Of a stretch of DNA of 64,000 nucleotides, positions 3,655 through 57,768 are shown in pieces. The DNA lies in assembly GCF_008035925.1 (NCBI RefSeq), contig NZ_CP036264.1, forward strand, positions 8,284,343 to 8,348,342. Reading direction: 5' to 3'. The stretch is from Stieleria maiorica (GTDB lineage: Bacteria; Planctomycetota; Planctomycetia; Pirellulales; Pirellulaceae). Under the pieces are notes generated by a model. The model was not told where the DNA came from. It made no database searches and was given only the letters and a program-made list of their open reading frames with translations. Position 1 is the stretch's first letter. Each line of letters starts with the position of its first letter. The position numbers were made by a program, and so were the translations under genes.

Positions 3655-6600
3655 TCACTTCCCAAAACACATCACACTTCCGTCGAGCGTTGAAAGAAAC
3701 AGACTGCCATTGGCGCCGGCCAGTCCGTCCCACGCTGGTAACGTGTCCAGCTTGATCTCATTTTCGATTTCGCCGGTGTCGATGTTCACCGCCAACAACG
3801 ACGACCCATCCTTGCCCATCAAGGCCGCGTCCTGGTCATCGAGCAACGCTTGGACTTCCGGATCGCTCTCGCTGAGTTGCTGGAACGTTTCTTCTTCGTT
3901 GATCGTGTCCGGTGGACCGACGATGAAGAGCTTGTTTCCGGCCAACACCATGCCGCGTACGTAAACCGGAACATCTTTGGCCCACTTCGGTTTGACCAGC
4001 GAATCACCGGGTTTGACATTGTTGTTCCCGCCCTTCTTCGCGGTTTGATTGCGGCTGGTGAACTGGACGGCCATGCCGAATTTCCCGTCGACCAGTTTGC
4101 CGCCTTCGAGGGTGCCGTTGTTGCGATGCAAGCTGTGATCGCGAGCGGTGCCGTCGTCAAAGCTGACCGCCAGCACGGCATCGGCCGAGATCTCCGAACC
4201 GTCGCCGTAGCGTTTGGCGACCTGATCGGCGGTTGCCGCCAGGAAATACAACCGCACCTCGTCGATCGCTCCAGAGAAGGCCAACGGAGACGTGTAATCA
4301 CCGACGGCGGTTTGACCATCGGCCCCGACATCCATGCCTTGAGCGGGGTCGACGTGAATCAATCCCGATGACTTGCCGCTGGCAGCGAGTTCTCCATCGA
4401 CGTACAGCGACATCGACTTGTCTTCACCCAACACGCCGACGACGTGGTGCCACCCGCCGACGATCCGTTTGGGCCCTTCGATCGTCGACAGCCCTTGTTC
4501 GCTGCGGACCAAGAACTGCGGTTTGCCCGCTTTCAGCGTCAGCGCGAATCCGGCTGATGGACCGCCGCGCGCGATGATCACTCCCTGGGGCTTGGTCGAT
4601 GTGATCCAAGCCTCCACCGTGATCGGTTTACCCTGTGGATTCAAACTCGGCGATTTGGGGAACGACGCGGACGGTGCCGACGCCCCGCCCCCTCCGCGTT
4701 TCTTTCCAAACCCTTCGGGAATCTCCGGCGGATTCTGTTCGGCGGAAAACAACTGGTGCTCCAGAACTGTCGTCCAACGCAAGTATTGTGGTTTGCGCCC
4801 GTAGCCATAAACGTACCCGTCACCCTTGACCAGGATGCGTCCCGACGGCGCGTACTTGCCGGCTTGATAGTAGCCGCCATGACCGCCGGCAAAACTCTGG
4901 CCCAGCACCCAATACGAGCGGTGGAACCAGGTGTCGTCCAAAAAGCCCATCGGCGCGAAGATGTGGGCGTCTTGGCCGCGCTGCTTGGAGGCTTGTGTGG
5001 CGAAGTCGCCCGAATTCGGTCCGATCTCTAATCGGTTGAGGTCAAAGTCAAATTTCTGGCTCTTCATGAACAAGTGCCGCCCGTCGGTGGACAAGATGTC
5101 GGGAAGCCCGACCGGCATTTGCAGGATTTGCAGTTTCTCCTGCAGGTTGTTTCCGGTCTCCGGATTGGTCTCGTCCATGATCGTTTCGGCCAGCTTTTTT
5201 CCGCTGGCCAAATCCAGCCGCAACAGCCGCATTCCGCCGTCCAAAAAGTTGGATCGCCCGGCAACGGTGTATACCGAGTCGTTGTGAATCAACACGCTGC
5301 CGTGCACCGGCCACAAGGATTCCAGTTGTTCATAGGCCATCGCACGACGATCGATCGGCGCGGCACGGTATCGCCAGACGAGTTCGCCGTCGGTGGTCAA
5401 ACAATACACCCAGCCGTCGGCGGCACCAAAGACGACGCGGCCACGATGCACGGTCGGCGGCGAATCGATCCGCGCCCCGGCGGTGTAGCTCCATTTCGCA
5501 TCGCCCGTTTTTTCGTCCAGGGCATGCAACGTGTGCTGGTCGATCTGGGCGACATAGACTTGCCCGTCGGCGATCACCGGGGCGGTCAGTCGGCCGCCCA
5601 AGTCCGCGGTCCATCGGGGGGCGACGTCGGAGCGAATCGTTCCGACAGTCGCGCCGCTGCGTCCCGCATCACGGCGGTAGGTCGGCCAATCGTCTGATCC
5701 GGCCGGGTTGGCGGCGGCCAACGCCACGTCGAACGCGGGGCCTTTTTCACGTCGCCCCGCTTCGGCGACCTTTGTCGGGATCGGACGGGTCGGGGCCAGC
5801 GGCGCCAGAGCGTTGAACCCGAACAGTTTGGCTTCGGGGTAACAGGCACAGTTGTGTGGCGGTGCGTACGTCAAACCGTTGCAGGGCATCACGCCGTACA
5901 GACACCCGCCGCGAACCCAGTGATGGATGTCCCAATGTTCTTTGTCGGGATCAACAAACTCGATCCCGGTCCGCGAAGGCATCAAGAAATTGTCGGTCGC
6001 CTTGGCGATGTAGCAACGGTGGTGAAACCAATACGTGTCCACATCGGGCGCAAATGATTTGACCACCTCGCCGGTTCGCGGGTTGCGTCCGGTGTAGACG
6101 CCGCTGTCCCTACCCGATGTCAACGGCGCCAACCAGACCAAACCATCGACGACCATCAAGTCCTGCGGTGATTGATAGCCGCTGTTGGGAAAACTCGCCT
6201 CCCACAGTTTTTCTCCGCTCTTCGCGTCGCTGCTGATCATCTTGCCGTCGCCGCCGGCGTACAACACCACGTCTTCGTAAACCACCAAGCGGGGACCAAA
6301 GTTGAACGTGAACGAATCGCGACGCGTCACCGATTCACTTTCCCAGACGATGTCGCCAGAATGTCCATCCAACGAGATGATCTTCTCGCCGTCGTGAAAG
6401 AAAATCTGTGAATCTTGGGCCGCCAACGTCAGCGGAGACACCTTCGTCTGCTTGGCCCAAAGCTGTTTTCCGGTGCTGGCTTGAAACGCCATCAACACGC
6501 GAGGTTCTTCGTTCCAGAAAAAACTGCGCGAACGCGCCTGGTCACCGACGGTGCCGTGCAGCGGGGCGTAGTCCTGCAGTTCCGCTTTCCCTTTTCGCAC

Positions 6601-7724: not shown

Positions 7725-7784
7725 CGAATCCCCACCGCCCGAATCCCCAACACCCGAATCCCCGACACCCGAATCCCCAACACC
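7725..7784. repeat. 15-bp minisatellite, four units, in a divergent promoter region
   Basis: Four head-to-tail units of CGAATCCCCAACACC with small changes (CACCGCC in the first, GACACC in the third). The array lies in the 280-bp gap between the divergent starts of the PQQ protein (7575, minus) and the truncated PPK2 (7856, plus). Copy-number change here would alter promoter spacing. No other gene is seen in 7576-7855. Confidence 0.9.
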
Positions 7785-7855
7785 CTGCGCGCCTCGACTG
7801 CGTGCCTGCACCGCGCCCGATCGCCTGTAGACGCCCGTTTGCCCCCCATTCGGAA

Positions 7856-24550: not shown

Positions 24551-28330
<3,780 letters not shown>

Positions 28331-52285: not shown

Positions 52286-54331
52286 ATGCTTGTTTCTTGG
52301 AAATGGCTCACCCGCTACGTCGATCTGCCGGCCGACCGTGAAGAGTTGGAAACCCGGCTCAGTTTGAGCGGGCTGAATCACGAAGGGACGGAGACGTCGA
52401 ACGAGAACCCGGCGCTGGCGGCCGATGACGTTTGCATCGACCTGGAAGTCACCAGCAACCGCGGCGATTGTTTGGGGCACATCGGCGTGGCGCGAGAGAT
52501 CGCGGTGCTGTATGACACGGAGTTGCGGGTGCCGTCGCCGACGCTTGAGGAGTCCAAGACAGACGTCGCGTCGCTGCTGAAAGTTGAGAATGAGTTCACC
52601 GAAGCTTGCCCACGCTACACCGCGCGTGTGATCCGGGGCGTCAAGGTTGGCCCCAGCCCGGCGTGGATGCAGGCCGCCCTGACCAGCGTCGGGATCGGCG
52701 TGGTCAACAACGTCGTCGACGCGACCAATTACGTGTTGATGGAATGCGGGCAGCCGTTGCATGCGTTTGATTACGCCAAAATTGCGGACCAGAAAATCGT
52801 CGTGCGGCCGGCACGCGAAAAAGAAATCATCACCGCGATCGATCACCGCCAATACGAACTGGATCCGTCGATGTGCGTGATCGCCGACGCAAAATCGGCC
52901 TCCGCCGTCGCCGGTGTGATGGGCGGAGCGGATTCGGAAGTGACCGATTCGACGGCCGACGTGGTGATCGAGGCGGCCATCTTCACTCCGCTTTCCGTGC
53001 GACGGGCGGCGCGAACGCTGAAATTGCACAGCCCCTCGTCGTTTCGGTTCGAACGCCGCGTCGATCCGGTCGGCGTGGATTGGGCCAGCCGACGCGTTTG
53101 CCAGTTGATCGTCGAGTCGGCCGGCGGAACCGTCGCCAAAGGAATCATCGATACGGCACCGGAGATCGAACCGCGACCGCCGATCGTGTTGCGACGGTCG
53201 CAACTGGAACGGATCCTGGGGATCACGATCGAGCCCGGCGAAGTCGATCGCATCCTGACGGCGCTCGGTTGCCAAAGTGACGCCAAGATCACGGCGGGAT
53301 CCGGTTCCTACCGTGCCCCATCGTGGCGTCATGACCTGACCCGCGAGGCCGATTTGATCGAGGAAGTGGCTCGGATTCACGGTTACGACAAGATCCCCGA
53401 GGACAGCCCGATCCCGGTTGCGCCGAGCAGCAAGCGGACCTTCGACTCGGCGACGGAAAAGATTCGTGGCGTGTTGACCGCCGCGGGGCTGAGCGAAGCG
53501 ATGACGCCGAGTGTGGTGACGAAAAAGCTTGATTCGTCACTTTCGCCATGGACCGAACGACCAGCCTTGAGCACTCAGACGGCGATGTTAAAAGGCGCCA
53601 AGCGACTTCGCCGCACGCTATTGCCGAGCTTGATCGAAGCACGCGCCAACAACTGGGCATCGGCGTCGATCGAAGCGGATCTATTTGAAATCGCGCACCT
53701 TTACCTGCCCGGTGAGACCGAAGACGAGTTGCCCGATGAGCTTTACGCGGTCTCGTTGGTCTGTGGCGGTGACTTCTTTGCCGCCAAAGGCATCATCGAA
53801 TCGCTGTGCCAGCGATTGGGCGCACGACAAGCCGTTTCGGTCTCCCCGGTCGATTCTCCCGGCTTCGTCACCGGTCAGTTGGTCCAGTTGTCGCTGGGCG
53901 ATTCACCACTGGGGTATCTCGGTGTCGTCGCACCCAAGACCTTGAAACAGTGGAAACTATCGGGCAACGTCGTGGTCGCCGAATTGTCGATCGCCGCGTT
54001 GTTGGCCGATGCCGAATTGGTGCCACAGCAACGCATCGTCAGCATGTTCCCCTCGGTCGAACGCGACCTGAATTTCGTGATGTCCGAATCGGTGCGTTGG
54101 AACGATCTGGAAAATGTGGTCCGATCGGCCGTCGGCGATCAGCTGAAATCGGTCACCTATCGTGAAACGTATCGCGATCCGAAAAAGGATGGCAAGGATC
54201 GCAAACGCGTGTTGCTGTCGATGCAGTTGCAAAGTGACGAGACGACGCTGAGCGGTGACGATGCCGACGCGCTGGTTCAAAGCGTCATCGGCGCCTGTAA
54301 GAAGAAGCTCGACGCCGAGTTGTTGGGTTGA
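52286..54331 (+). CDS. pheT: Phenylalanyl-tRNA synthetase beta subunit
   Basis: 681 residues, shorter than the 790-800 of the E. coli form. The N-terminus begins MLVSWKWLTRYVDLPADREE and goes directly to the B3/B4 editing region (GDCLGHIGVAREIAVLY, VVNNVVDATNYVL), so the N-terminal EMAP-type tRNA-binding domain of about 110 residues is absent. The catalytic-like core (EVARIHGYDKIPED) and the C-terminal anticodon-binding fold are present. A short PheT of this kind is normal in several bacterial groups. The stop TGA shares its last base neighbourhood with the next gene (1 nt apart). Confidence 0.95.
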   Translation: MLVSWKWLTRYVDLPADREELETRLSLSGLNHEGTETSNENPALAADDVCIDLEVTSNRGDCLGHIGVAREIAVLYDTELRVPSPTLEESKTDVASLLKVENEFTEACPRYTARVIRGVKVGPSPAWMQAALTSVGIGVVNNVVDATNYVLMECGQPLHAFDYAKIADQKIVVRPAREKEIITAIDHRQYELDPSMCVIADAKSASAVAGVMGGADSEVTDSTADVVIEAAIFTPLSVRRAARTLKLHSPSSFRFERRVDPVGVDWASRRVCQLIVESAGGTVAKGIIDTAPEIEPRPPIVLRRSQLERILGITIEPGEVDRILTALGCQSDAKITAGSGSYRAPSWRHDLTREADLIEEVARIHGYDKIPEDSPIPVAPSSKRTFDSATEKIRGVLTAAGLSEAMTPSVVTKKLDSSLSPWTERPALSTQTAMLKGAKRLRRTLLPSLIEARANNWASASIEADLFEIAHLYLPGETEDELPDELYAVSLVCGGDFFAAKGIIESLCQRLGARQAVSVSPVDSPGFVTGQLVQLSLGDSPLGYLGVVAPKTLKQWKLSGNVVVAELSIAALLADAELVPQQRIVSMFPSVERDLNFVMSESVRWNDLENVVRSAVGDQLKSVTYRETYRDPKKDGKDRKRVLLSMQLQSDETTLSGDDADALVQSVIGACKKKLDAELLG

Positions 54332-54332
54332 T

Positions 54333-55361
54333 ATGCCCGTTGAAATCTTTGCGTACTGCACGCACCGTGATCCGCCCGAACCGCAATTCCCCCACGAACC
54401 GGTGTTCGTGCGCGACGAGTCGACTCCGGGATTCGTCGAACATCTGATGGGTTTGGTCCAAGACCTGTTTGAATCGCAGCAGGATCAGTTCAGTCAGACC
54501 GTGTACGCGATTTGTCGGCACTTGCAGCGGACCAACATGCTGGTGGCGATGAAGGTCGATGGCGAGCACATCGAAGCGATCGCTCCTTGGGCGTGGCAGG
54601 CCAACGCGATCCTGTTTCTGCCCGACCGCAGTATCCGCGACCCCAACGGCGCGGTGCTGTACGACCCGGCGGCCGTGCAGCCTGATCCGAACGCCCAATT
54701 GCCGTTTTTGCCCGATGCCCGACAGCGAAAGGCTCAAGCAGAAATCGAACTTCGAAACCGATTGATCGACACGCCCGAGGCATTGCCGCCGGTGGTCAGC
54801 GAATTCGAAGTTACCTTGCGTTCGGCGGATGAAGTCGTGTGGCGAATGCTCGCGTTGTTCGTCGTGGCGGTCCGCGCCGAATCGCTGTCGAGCGGAAAAC
54901 CGATCCCGGTCGCGGCGTTACGGGAGAAGTCTCCTTTGGCGTTCCAATCGCTCACGTCTTGGGAGACCACCTTTTTGGAAAACGAGTCGCCGCCCGAAGC
55001 CGATGTTTCGGCCGCGGGTTGGCGCTACGAGGCGCTCGCGTTGTTGCAATGGTCCTTGGGGATGCACTCGGAACTTGCCTTTCCCGACGCGATTTGTGAT
55101 GTCCCGGAGGTTGCCCGCCAGATGATCGCGATGCCGGCGCGACAGATGATCGAATCGGCGGCGTTGCGACCAACGGGCGAAATCCTGGACGCCCTGGACA
55201 TGAATTTTCGACTGCTGTGGGCGGCCCGCGATGCGGCGACGCGGCAGACGGAACCCCCGGCGGGCATCGAAGGCGGCGTGATCGCGGAGCGGCAACACGC
55301 GCTGAATTGGTTGACCCGTTTTGAGAACGCGGAATGGGACGAGGTGGACATTCCGAGTTAG
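54333..55361 (+). CDS. DUF4272-like protein
   Basis: 342 residues. The C-terminal half contains WRMLALFVVAVRAESLSSGK and GWRYEALALLQWSLGMHSEL, phrases typical of DUF4272 proteins, and a final helix RHALNWLTRFENAEWDEVD. No catalytic residue is known for the family. It starts 1 nt after pheT ends, so it is probably translated from the same transcript. The 112-bp repeat array begins at its stop codon. Function unknown. Confidence 0.75.
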   Translation: MPVEIFAYCTHRDPPEPQFPHEPVFVRDESTPGFVEHLMGLVQDLFESQQDQFSQTVYAICRHLQRTNMLVAMKVDGEHIEAIAPWAWQANAILFLPDRSIRDPNGAVLYDPAAVQPDPNAQLPFLPDARQRKAQAEIELRNRLIDTPEALPPVVSEFEVTLRSADEVVWRMLALFVVAVRAESLSSGKPIPVAALREKSPLAFQSLTSWETTFLENESPPEADVSAAGWRYEALALLQWSLGMHSELAFPDAICDVPEVARQMIAMPARQMIESAALRPTGEILDALDMNFRLLWAARDAATRQTEPPAGIEGGVIAERQHALNWLTRFENAEWDEVDIPS

Positions 55362-56740
55362 GCGGTGGGGGAACATTTGGGACGATGGTTCTACACTCGC
55401 AGCGTAGAACCGCTGTCTCAGCTGTTCTCTCGTGGCAGCGAAGCTGACAGAGGACACGCGTTCCGCCGGGACGGCGGTGGGGGAACATTTGGGACAAATG
55501 TTCTACAATCGCAATGTAGAACCGCTGTCGCAGCTGTTCCCTGGTGGCAACGAAGTTGCCAGAGGACACGTGCTCCGCCGGGACGGCGGTGGGGGAACAT
55601 TTGGGACAAATGTTCTACAATCGCAATGTAGAACCGCTGTCGCAGCTGTTCCCTGGTGGCAACGAAGTTGCCAGAGGACACGTGCTCCGCCGGGACGGCG
55701 GTGGGGGAACATTTGGGACAAATGTTCTACAATCGCAATGTAGAACCGCTGTCGCAGCTGTTCCCTGGTGGCAACGAAGCTGACAGAGGACACGCGTTCC
55801 GCCGGGGCGGTGGCGGGGGAACAATTGGGACAATGGTTCTACACTCGCAGTGTAGAACCGCTGTCTCAGCTGTTCCCTGGTGGCAGCGAAGCTGACAGAG
55901 GACACGCGTTCCGCCGGGGCGGTGGCGGGGGAACAATTGGGACAATGGTTCTACACTCGCAGTGTAGAACCGCTGTCTCAGCTGTTCCCTGGTGGCAGCG
56001 AAGCTGACAGAGGACACGCGTTCCGCCGGGGCGGTGGCGGGGGAACAATTGGGACAATGGTTCTACACTCGCAGTGTAGAACCGCTGTCTCAGCTGTTCC
56101 CTGGTGGCAGCGAAGCTGACAGAGGACACGCGTTCCGCCGGGGCGGTGGCGGGGGAACAATTGGGACAAATGTTCTACACTCGCAGTGTAGAACCGCTGT
56201 CTCAGCTGTTCTCTCGTGGCGGCGAAGCTGACAGGGGATAGACGCTCCGCCGAGGCGGCGGGTGGGGGAACAATTGGGACAAATGTTCTACACTCGCAGT
56301 GTAGAACCGCTGTCTCAGCTGTTCTCTGGTGGCAGCGAAGCTGCCACAGGACACGCGTTCCGCCGGGGCGGCGGTGGGGGAACAATTGGGACAAATGTTC
56401 TACACTCGCAGTGTAGAACCGCTGTCTCAGCTGTTCTCTCGTGGCAGCGAAGCTGACAGGGGATAGACGCTCCGCCGGGGCGGCGGTGGGGGAACATTTG
56501 GGACAAATGTTCTACACTCGCAGTGTAGAACCGCTGTCTCAGCTGTTCTCTGGTGGCAGCGAAGCTGCCACAGGATACGCGTTCCGCCGAGGCGGCGGGT
56601 GGGGGAACATTTGGGACAAATGTTCTACACTCGCAGTGTAGAACCGCTGTCTCAGCTGTTCCCTGGTGGCAGCGAAGCTGACAGGGGATAGACGCGCCGC
56701 CGGGACGGCGGTGGGAGAACATTTGGGACAAATGTTCTAC
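55361..56740. repeat. Tandem array of 112-bp units (12 anchors) with hairpins
   Basis: The unit begins GTAGAACCGCTGTC; these anchors lie at 55404, 55516, 55628, 55740, 55852, 55964, 56076, 56188, 56301, 56413, 56525 and 56638, so spacing is 112 nt except two of 113. Partial units flank both ends. Each unit can form stem-loops: GAACATTT-GGGAC-AAATGTTC, GTTCTACACT-CGC-AGTGTAGAAC, GGCAGC-GAA-GCTGCC and CCGCC-(GGGAC)-GGCGG. The first two share a GTTC and exclude each other. Open frames cross on both strands only because 112 is not a multiple of three; I see no coding evidence. Confidence 0.97.
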
Positions 56741-56745
56741 AAATA

Positions 56746-56774
56746 TTCATGGATGAGAGTCGTTTGCGTACAAT
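56746..56774 (+). promoter_or_regulatory. Possible sigma-70 promoter for pssA
   Basis: TTCATG, 17 nt, then TACAAT (56769-56774), starting 6 nt after the last repeat unit and 62 nt before the pssA start. The -10 box is good, the -35 poor. Confidence 0.35.
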
Positions 56775-56835
56775 GTTTTCCATCATTTTGATCCACTTCG
56801 ACGGCACTTTCTCTCCGGTCACCCCTTAGACATTC

Positions 56836-57768
56836 ATGAGTGAATTAAAACGCGAACTCCACTCGGCGGATGAATTCGACGAGGTATTGGAGGTCGAGGC
56901 GCCGGAGGAGCAGGAAGCGGACAAGCCGTTGTCGCGCAAGGACTTTCGGCGGCAGAAACGCAAGCGTCGTCGCAAAGTCATGCTGGCGGTGCTGCCCACC
57001 ATGCTGACCCTCGGCAACGGCGTCTGTGGGCTGGGGGCGATCGCCGTGGCGGTCAGCGGTGCCGAACTGGGCTGGCCGTTGGAGCAAAAACTGTTCACGT
57101 CCGGAATGCTGATTTTCGGCGGAATGCTGTTCGACGCGCTCGACGGATCGGCGGCTCGGATGACCGGCCAGGAGACCGAGTTCGGTGCTCAGCTGGACAG
57201 CTTGTGCGATGCCGTCACGTTCGGCACCGCTCCGGCGGTGATCATCTGGCGGATCAGTGATGCGTTGCCGCAGCGGTTTCTGTGGGCCGTGGGTGTGCTG
57301 TTCACCTTGTGCGTGTTGATCCGGCTGGCCCGTTTCAACGTCGAAACCGGTGAAGACGATTCACACGAGACGTTTGAGGGGCTGCCCAGCCCGGCCGCGG
57401 CGGGAACACTGGCCGCGTTTGCGATCGCGATGCCGGACTTGAAGGACTTGGCCAGTAACAAGATCTACCCCGAAAACGTTCAGGCGATCGCGGATGCGGC
57501 GTTGGTCGGTTCCCACTACTTCATCCCTGCCTTGGCGGGGGTGCTGGCGTATTTGATGGTGTCTCGGTTTCAGTACCCGCACTTGGTGGCCCAATGGGTC
57601 AAGGGACGCCGCACGACGCACCAAATCGGTCAAGCGATGTTCGCCCTCGGCGGCGTCTTTCTGTTGCATTGGTTGGCGCTGCCGATCGCGTTTTGCTACT
57701 ACTCGTTCGCCGCGCCGCTGCGGTCGTTGATGCGATCTCGGCGAAGTTGGCTGCGGGCGAACGAGTGA
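56836..57768 (+). CDS. pssA: CDP-diacylglycerol-serine O-phosphatidyltransferase
   Basis: 310 residues. The CDP-alcohol phosphotransferase motif DGxxAR...G...D...D is exact: FDALDGSAARMTGQETEFGA then QLDSLCDAVTFG. A charged N-terminal extension (about 1-50, Glu/Lys/Arg-rich) precedes membrane helices (MLPTMLTLGNGVCGLGAI and others). It makes phosphatidylserine in the inner membrane, the precursor of phosphatidylethanolamine. Archaeatidylserine/PS synthases of the Bacillus type have this layout. It lies just downstream of the 112-bp array. Confidence 0.9.
   Translation: MSELKRELHSADEFDEVLEVEAPEEQEADKPLSRKDFRRQKRKRRRKVMLAVLPTMLTLGNGVCGLGAIAVAVSGAELGWPLEQKLFTSGMLIFGGMLFDALDGSAARMTGQETEFGAQLDSLCDAVTFGTAPAVIIWRISDALPQRFLWAVGVLFTLCVLIRLARFNVETGEDDSHETFEGLPSPAAAGTLAAFAIAMPDLKDLASNKIYPENVQAIADAALVGSHYFIPALAGVLAYLMVSRFQYPHLVAQWVKGRRTTHQIGQAMFALGGVFLLHWLALPIAFCYYSFAAPLRSLMRSRRSWLRANE

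Follow-up and report, generated by a model that had tools for sequence, protein, structure and literature searches.

In the genome of the planctomycete Stieleria maiorica, the space between a DUF4272 gene and a gene initially annotated as pssA is filled by a tandem array of 112-bp units with several short palindromes, and the question that this locus raises is what such an array is: a structured RNA, a protein-binding array or a replication-linked repeat, the three options offered by the initial annotation. The stretch that was analysed (64,000 nucleotides, hereafter the window) sits in a single contig of 9,894,293 bases. The evidence presented below makes it very probable that the array is a tandem REPIN cluster (BIME) of a planctomycete REPtron which was multiplied in place by recombination. 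Among the three options, the sequence data favour a protein-binding array, probably one of a special kind that consists of RAYT-recognised REP hairpins in single-stranded DNA, with the structured RNA and the replication-linked repeat ranking lower. The inverted pairing of the REPs, their dispersal in the genome and the matching RAYT gene go beyond the initial account.

Anatomy of the array

The sole array called by TRF in the gap has a period of 112, 12.3 copies and a score of 2177, and its 13 anchors (twelve had been counted initially) define 12 spacings, ten of 112 and two of 113 nucleotides. The flanking genes are listed in Table 1, and 94 bp separate the array end from the downstream one. 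Isolated copies elsewhere in the genome, from which the borders could be read off, place the natural start of the unit at the GTAG tag of a hairpin denoted REPα, followed by hairpins H2 and H3 and an inverted REPβ; with the phase set at this tag, the first unit is truncated, and the array totals 12 REPα and 13 REPβ. The first two palindromes do share GTTC, as the initial annotation described, one of the two being REPβ and the other the junction of neighbouring units. The array is not a CRISPR, as already recognised, given that the entire 112-bp unit repeats and there are no unique spacers. Open frames do cross the array; a protein-coding role was set aside because the period is not a multiple of three.

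Table 1. Features of the array and of the flanking genes (positions are those of the window).
Feature	Position	Strand	Description
DUF4272 gene	54255..55361	+	PF14094, 204 bits; start codon predicted; stop codon forms the first bases of the array
Whole array	55361..56741	.	truncated first unit (part of H3 and REPβ), then 12 complete REPα-H2-H3-REPβ units
REPα, example unit	56301..56324	+	GTAG tag, hairpin GAAC-c-GCTG-TCT-CAGC-t-GTTC
H2, example unit	56329..56347	.	GTGGCAGC-GAA-GCTGCCAC; the stem noticed initially
H3, example unit	56360..56374	.	CCGCC.. / ..GGCGG form
REPβ, example unit	56380..56403	-	inverted
REPα starts (n = 12)	55404, 55516, 55628, 55740, 55852, 55964, 56076, 56188, 56301, 56413, 56525, 56638		
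REPβ starts (n = 13)	55371, 55483, 55595, 55707, 55819, 55931, 56043, 56155, 56268, 56380, 56492, 56605, 56717		
Chimeric unit 4 region (REPα at 55740)	55730..55844	.	left half of unit 2/3 type, right half of unit 5-7 type
CDP-alcohol phosphatidyltransferase gene ("pssA" of the initial annotation)	56836..57768	+	PF01066, 72 bits

The H2 stem reads GGCAAC-GAA-GTTGCC in units 2 and 3 and GGCAGC-GAA-GCTGCC in units 9 and 11, exactly as first quoted; the commonest form, with one stem pair broken, is GGCAGC-GAA-GCTGAC (6 of the 12 units). The compensatory change on which the initial annotation relied is real, but it amounts to one event in the array, and the strongest covariation is found in the REP hairpins. 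Two short tandem repeats of period 15 were also detected in the window (7725-7785, 4.1 copies, and 27890-27949, 4.0 copies), possibly within coding frames.

A dispersed REP family and the pairing that it conserves

A query of two units produced 122 matches in the genome at E up to 10, many of which are one site matched again on the opposite strand owing to its palindromes. Isolated copies are bordered by AGTGTAGAACCG(C/T)TGTC..CA(G/A)CTGTTC, which is followed by two hairpins and then by the inverted counterpart GAACAATTG..GACAATGGTTCTACACT; each unit end consists of GTAG and the imperfect hairpin GAAC-c-GYTG-loop-CARC-t-GTTC. The core REP pattern has 127 sites in the S. maiorica genome and its reversed control has none. 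When the fetched loci were searched with the tag left out of the pattern, GTAG preceded 195 of the 219 sites, GTCG 20, GTGG 2 and other tetranucleotides 2. The REPs collected from the fetched loci number 249, namely 186 from S. maiorica and 63 from the sister species (genome G013, represented by 18 stretches); totals drawn from fetched places only are lower bounds, and the collection favours near-consensus sites (at most four substitutions), with the two variable inner bases of each arm left free. The S. maiorica genome contains at least 186 REPs. These are grouped in no fewer than 47 clusters, whose size ranges from a single REP to the 25 of the window array, and crude ORF calling places 36 of these 47 clusters between ORFs and 9 inside an open frame, with 2 undecided. 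Another array of the same family (L046, G000:C1:8283246-8283755, where G000 denotes the S. maiorica genome) ends about 590 bp before the window starts, and the outer stem of its REPβ, GCAC/GTGC, is a double change relative to GAAC/GTTC.

Head-to-head REP pairs number 92, of which 90 have a spacer of 52-70 nucleotides; the other two (spacer of 2-3 nucleotides) were excluded from the unit counts. The inner pairs differ between the two REPs in 79 of the 90 units, hence the distinction of α and β as unlike REPs; tagged REPs also occur singly, and some doublets have their REPs in a different order. The array between DUF4272 and pssA is accordingly a member of the GTAG super-family of REPs by its tag, its dispersed and mostly extragenic copies and its complementary changes, and it has the inverted REP pair as the repeated unit that characterises REPINs and BIMEs. 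This putatively mobile doublet is present at the array site in a lineage-specific manner; empty or newly filled sites were not encountered in either species, which counts against the REPIN/RAYT account.

The initial annotation had proposed that pairing is kept and had stated beforehand that a lack of covariation among the copies aligned genome-wide would speak against its reading. Covariation is present. The two variable inner pairs of the 249 REPs read GT/AC in 88, AT/AT in 80, GC/GC in 62, TT/AA in 6 and otherwise in 13, and they are complementary in 239 and 246 REPs, compared to 126 and 152 expected from the column composition; among the 72 distinct REP sequences, the respective numbers are 65 and 69 against 37 and 43 expected. 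The outer stem is doubly changed as well (GAAC/GTTC in 214, GAGC/GCTC in 12 and GCAC/GTGC in 4). The position between the two parts of the stem is a C opposite a T in 216 of the 249 REPs and non-Watson-Crick in 231, and a stem bulge is required for the activity of E. coli TnpAREP according to the accessible text of PMC8266576. In the window array, the bulge C is replaced by A, which pairs with the opposite T, in 9 of the 13 REPβ; such copies may no longer be substrates, and these closed bulges count against the REPIN/RAYT account.

Whole units were compared in an alignment of 29 of the 90 units from 28 loci (one unit per locus, two for L034). The window is represented there by the unit at 56299-56405, which was chosen by hand over the 55850-55956 unit selected by the script, so that its H2 row pairs better than the commonest unit of the array. 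The local four-hairpin structure pairs 92.3% of the cells, with both-sided changes at 9 pairs (30 cells), a result matched by none of 500 shuffles; further pair types (18, compared to 17.6 in the shuffles) are not above the shuffle level, and this measure likewise counts against the REPIN/RAYT account. Pairing of the unit end to end accommodates 90.7% of the cells, with a both-sided change at a single pair in a single cell, which is the level of the shuffles. Shuffle tests are optimistic given related rows, and the contrast between local and end-to-end pairing draws on identical rows. RNAalifold, unaided, recovers the hairpin of each REP and the upper part of H2, and does not recover H3. Covariation that is strong inside the REPs and absent between the unit ends indicates that the local hairpins are what is conserved.

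The two inner hairpins are 81.7% (H2) and 89.4% (H3) paired in the same 29 rows, with double changes at 3 of 7 and 2 of 7 pairs, respectively, and one H2 pair is unpaired in 18 rows. The exact palindrome TCAGCCG-N2/3-CGGCTGA, the commonest form of H3 in the alignment, has 13 sites in the genome, all at most 53 bp from a REP of the family; this pattern does not cover the H3 of the window array, which is of the CCGCC form. A GNA triloop makes a very stable DNA mini-hairpin; the notion that the H2 triloop is always GNA was dropped, the loop being GNA in 16 rows and other in 13.

The unit could also be viewed as a fixed four-hairpin mini-transposon, in which REPα and REPβ are two dissimilar termini, left and right, in the manner of IS200/IS605, and H2 and H3 are needed in the single-strand intermediate. 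This possibility is supported by the unlike ends of most units, by the span of H2 and H3 across all 29 aligned units with some double changes and by the proximity of every exact H3 palindrome to a REP, and is nevertheless to be regarded as somewhat unlikely; were it true, recombination would enlarge arrays located behind genes into long blocks of variable length.

The same hairpins could be read at the RNA level, with the array being a structured RNA or an element such as a terminator or an mRNA stabiliser and the covariation resulting from selection on RNA. A single unit folds better than 200 of 200 shuffles on either strand (z of -4.5 and -5.3 with RNA parameters), the crude ORF call puts 30 of the 47 clusters between genes that converge or point the same way, and many GTAG repeats are described as plausibly transcribed in the accessible text of PMC3733652. 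An RNA-level role can coexist as a secondary one, but as the principal explanation we find it highly improbable: the two variable inner pairs show G-T wobble intermediates in only 4 and 2 of 249 REPs, the repeats surround a RAYT gene, and no Rfam family reaches its gathering score, the 11 sub-threshold matches at positions 55000-57200 being taken as chance because they are far under the gathering scores (the best, MIR8622, has 40 of 197 bits). There is scarcely any likelihood that the unit is a MITE which a DDE transposase mobilises in double-stranded form: its ends do form mutual inverted repeats of 26-28 bp, as the end-to-end pairing attests, but they covary only at the shuffle level, their inner pairs usually differ while each end is self-complementary, and REPs exist singly and as doublets in other orders.

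A candidate RAYT gene and its relation to known systems

The enzyme that would act on the REP hairpins is the product of a candidate RAYT gene, G000:C1:6067422-6068117 (L031:3423-4121), a frame of 232 residues located 2.27 Mb from the window array and flanked by its own REP family: 6 REPs precede it, and 16 follow, starting at its stop codon. This gene was overlooked by the Pfam Y1 search and was found by reading the frame between two arrays. It scores 57.1 bits (E 1.8e-15) with the NCBIfam REP_Tyr_transpos model, compared to 12.3 bits with the IS200 transposase model, and 20.3 bits with Pfam Y1_Tnp; the values below the curated cut-offs (80 for NCBIfam and 23 for Pfam) count against the REPIN/RAYT account. 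Two further RAYT-like proteins of the genome are also under the NCBIfam cut-off (68.9 and 75.6 bits). In a profile search of the PDB, the sole match at E up to 1 is 4er8, the E. coli TnpAREP (E 1.6e-9). The AlphaFold model (pLDDT 91.3, pTM 0.84) likewise retrieves 4er8 as the best Foldseek match (E 9.9e-6) and the only one at E up to 0.001, with ranks 2-30 occupied by transposases of the IS200/IS605 group or related ones; the similarity of the model to 4er8 is modest (TM-score 0.40 by query and 0.55 by target, rmsd 9.7, 16% identity). Six residues, H150, H152, W189, D195, R199 and Y210, are invariant in 30 aligned relatives, and Q190 and H196 are nearly so. Matched by spacing and by the alignment with 4er8, these eight residues correspond to the HuH motif, to the tyrosine and to the sites of GTAG contact, which in E. 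coli involve W94, Q95, E100, H101 and R104 (PMC6006769, accessible text). The product is thus predicted, from sequence and model, to combine the HuH motif and a catalytic tyrosine in a Y1 fold that is closest to TnpAREP.

Under the proposed scenario, GTAG-tagged REP hairpins in inverted pairs that enclose two more hairpins would constitute the REPIN unit, the RAYT would bind the REP hairpins as single-stranded DNA via the GTAG tag and the bulge, and it would cut and join REPs, spreading the units as non-autonomous elements; an effect on neighbouring genes, if any, would be a by-product.

The four Pfam Y1 matches in the genome were considered and set aside: L065 and L066 were taken for IS200-type, and L067 and L068 are RAYT-like with other repeats beside them; the REP family of the array was found near none of the four. 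The second RAYT-like gene (L069:5950-6798, minus strand, near G000:C1 8851233-8852797; 68.9 bits to NF047646) lies directly beside a 100-bp tandem array of a different sequence (L069:5234-5952, 7.3 copies), and the two form another REPtron-like locus. The third (L070:4950-5582, minus strand, near G000:C1 1538758-1539918; 75.6 bits) has 78-80 bp repeats of yet another sequence on both sides (L070:4759-4966 and 5632-5919). Five open frames of 396-399 residues (L155-L159; G000:C1 4645220, 5010042, 5129210, 5884045 and 7374039), which all match the C-terminal half of the RAYT model with 30.9 bits, represent a gene in several copies that may be an insertion sequence.

Inverted REP doublets, tandem clusters and REP-flanked RAYTs are already established in the accessible portions of PMC3116915, PMC3733652, PMC8266576 and PMC6006769, so the present system is of a known kind (REPIN/RAYT), a long new example rather than a new system. 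The REPINs of Pseudomonas fluorescens SBW25, as far as described in the accessible text of PMC3116915, resemble the present ones in that the unit is an inverted REP doublet, flanking sequence is included in the tandem clusters and each RAYT has a cluster next to it. However, the largest SBW25 cluster has four REPINs and one REP, compared to the 12 REPINs of the S. maiorica array, and the S. maiorica units differ from those of SBW25 in that the spacer, of 52-62 nucleotides, holds two conserved hairpins and most units combine REPs of two types. The E. coli REPtron (TnpAREP, Y and Z REPs, BIMEs; PMC8266576 and PMC6006769, both in part, and 4er8) resembles the present one in the GTAG tag, the imperfect hairpin with a conserved bulge, the inverted pairs of unlike REP types, the tandem copies and the HuH-Tyr enzyme with tag-contacting residues, whereas the S. 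maiorica RAYT differs by an N-terminal part of roughly 130 residues and by D at the position of E100, and the stem and loop sequences of the REPs differ. The GTAG repeat families of Di Nocera and others include those of Rhodopirellula baltica, a planctomycete of the same family, for which several REP families and many tyrosine transposase genes are reported (PMC3733652, accessible text); they share the GTAG-tagged palindromes, the head-head and tail-tail dimers and the clusters, and the comparison with the 24 families of that study is by text alone, their consensus sequences being given in a figure. IS200/IS605 transposons have hairpin ends and the Y1 HuH transposase fold in common with this system, but the S. 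maiorica units are gene-less and the enzyme scores far better as a RAYT. In the passages of the literature that were covered, no description of the Stieleria REP family was found.

The S. maiorica family stands out by the length of its array and by the two-hairpin spacer. With it, and with clear covariation data for its REPs, a planctomycete RAYT clade can be tied to a REP family of its own, in a host far from the gamma-proteobacteria, whose REPtrons were studied in vitro (PMC8266576, accessible text).

Distribution among genomes and history of the array

The REP pattern was detected in 4 of 60 genomes, with 130 sites in S. maiorica, 118 in G013, 22 in G023 and 10 in G028, and with none in the controls. 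Among the 14 genomes of the genus, S. maiorica and its sister species are the only ones that bear REPs, and these are the same two that possess a close RAYT. The RAYT model has 11 matches in S. maiorica and 6 in G013, in each case with REPs within about 1.5 kb of one; these two REP-flanked RAYTs are orthologs with 78% identity. In the draft genomes G023 and G028, none of the 8 RAYT-model matches has the respective REP nearby, an observation that counts against the REPIN/RAYT account. Two MAG loci, L104 and L105, have RAYTs with 55% identity that are situated amid REPs built on the same plan, with the sequences GAGCGATTG..CAATCGCTC and GAACGATTG..CAATCGTTC. Near the other 28 RAYT relatives in that set, the REP of the array is absent, the one match with 5 mismatches (L085) not being palindromic; several of these relatives have GTAG- or GTCG-tagged palindromes of a different sequence. 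An automatic finder of tagged hairpins by other RAYTs was too strict and missed known cases, so no counts were taken from it. Of six loci from a contig scan, three flavobacterial ones were dropped, as they match over 16 residues only. RAYTs at 100, 78 and 55% identity, together with REPs that carry both-sided stem changes, provide a natural series on the reading of stem, bulge and tag.

In G013, the same array is interrupted by contig ends, and the sequence at its two edges, one at the stop codon of DUF4272 and the other ahead of pssA, is nearly the same as in S. maiorica. In 11 of the 12 remaining members of the genus, DUF4272 and pssA are neighbours with roughly 107-949 bp between them, and in the twelfth no DUF4272 gene was found next to pssA; the REP pattern has no match anywhere in these 12 genomes. 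Given the shared junctions and the absence of the REPs from the 12 other members, the insertion most likely predates the split of the two species. The copy patterns suggest a single insertion behind the DUF4272 gene, after which slippage or unequal recombination would have multiplied the unit in place and produced the chimeric unit 4. Units 2-3 and units 5-7 form runs of identical copies, and unit 4 has the variable bases of the former on the left and of the latter on the right, with the breakpoint at the H2 loop. This clean chimera accounts for the one-sided change at 55740, for which the initial annotation had rightly considered recombination.

Local tandem duplication is the likely cause of the copy number in the window array, as the identical runs and the chimeric unit imply, but a plain satellite that arose by slippage duplication, with no mobile ancestry and with the palindromes and paired changes produced by template switching between arms, has almost no claim as the full account, because the element is dispersed over no fewer than 47 clusters, between two of which a RAYT gene lies, and such switching would tend to close the bulge that most REPs retain. 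With its 12 units and with closed bulges in the majority of its REPβ, the array is a test case for array growth without transposition.

In the accessible text of PMC3733652, REP ends are noted to often supply TAG stops to flanking ORFs, and this arrangement recurs here for the RAYT genes themselves: in 8 of the 32 RAYT genes examined (L074 and L103 counted once), those of L073, L074, L075, L085, L093, L099, L104 and L105, the stop codon is the TAG of the GTAG that opens a palindrome.
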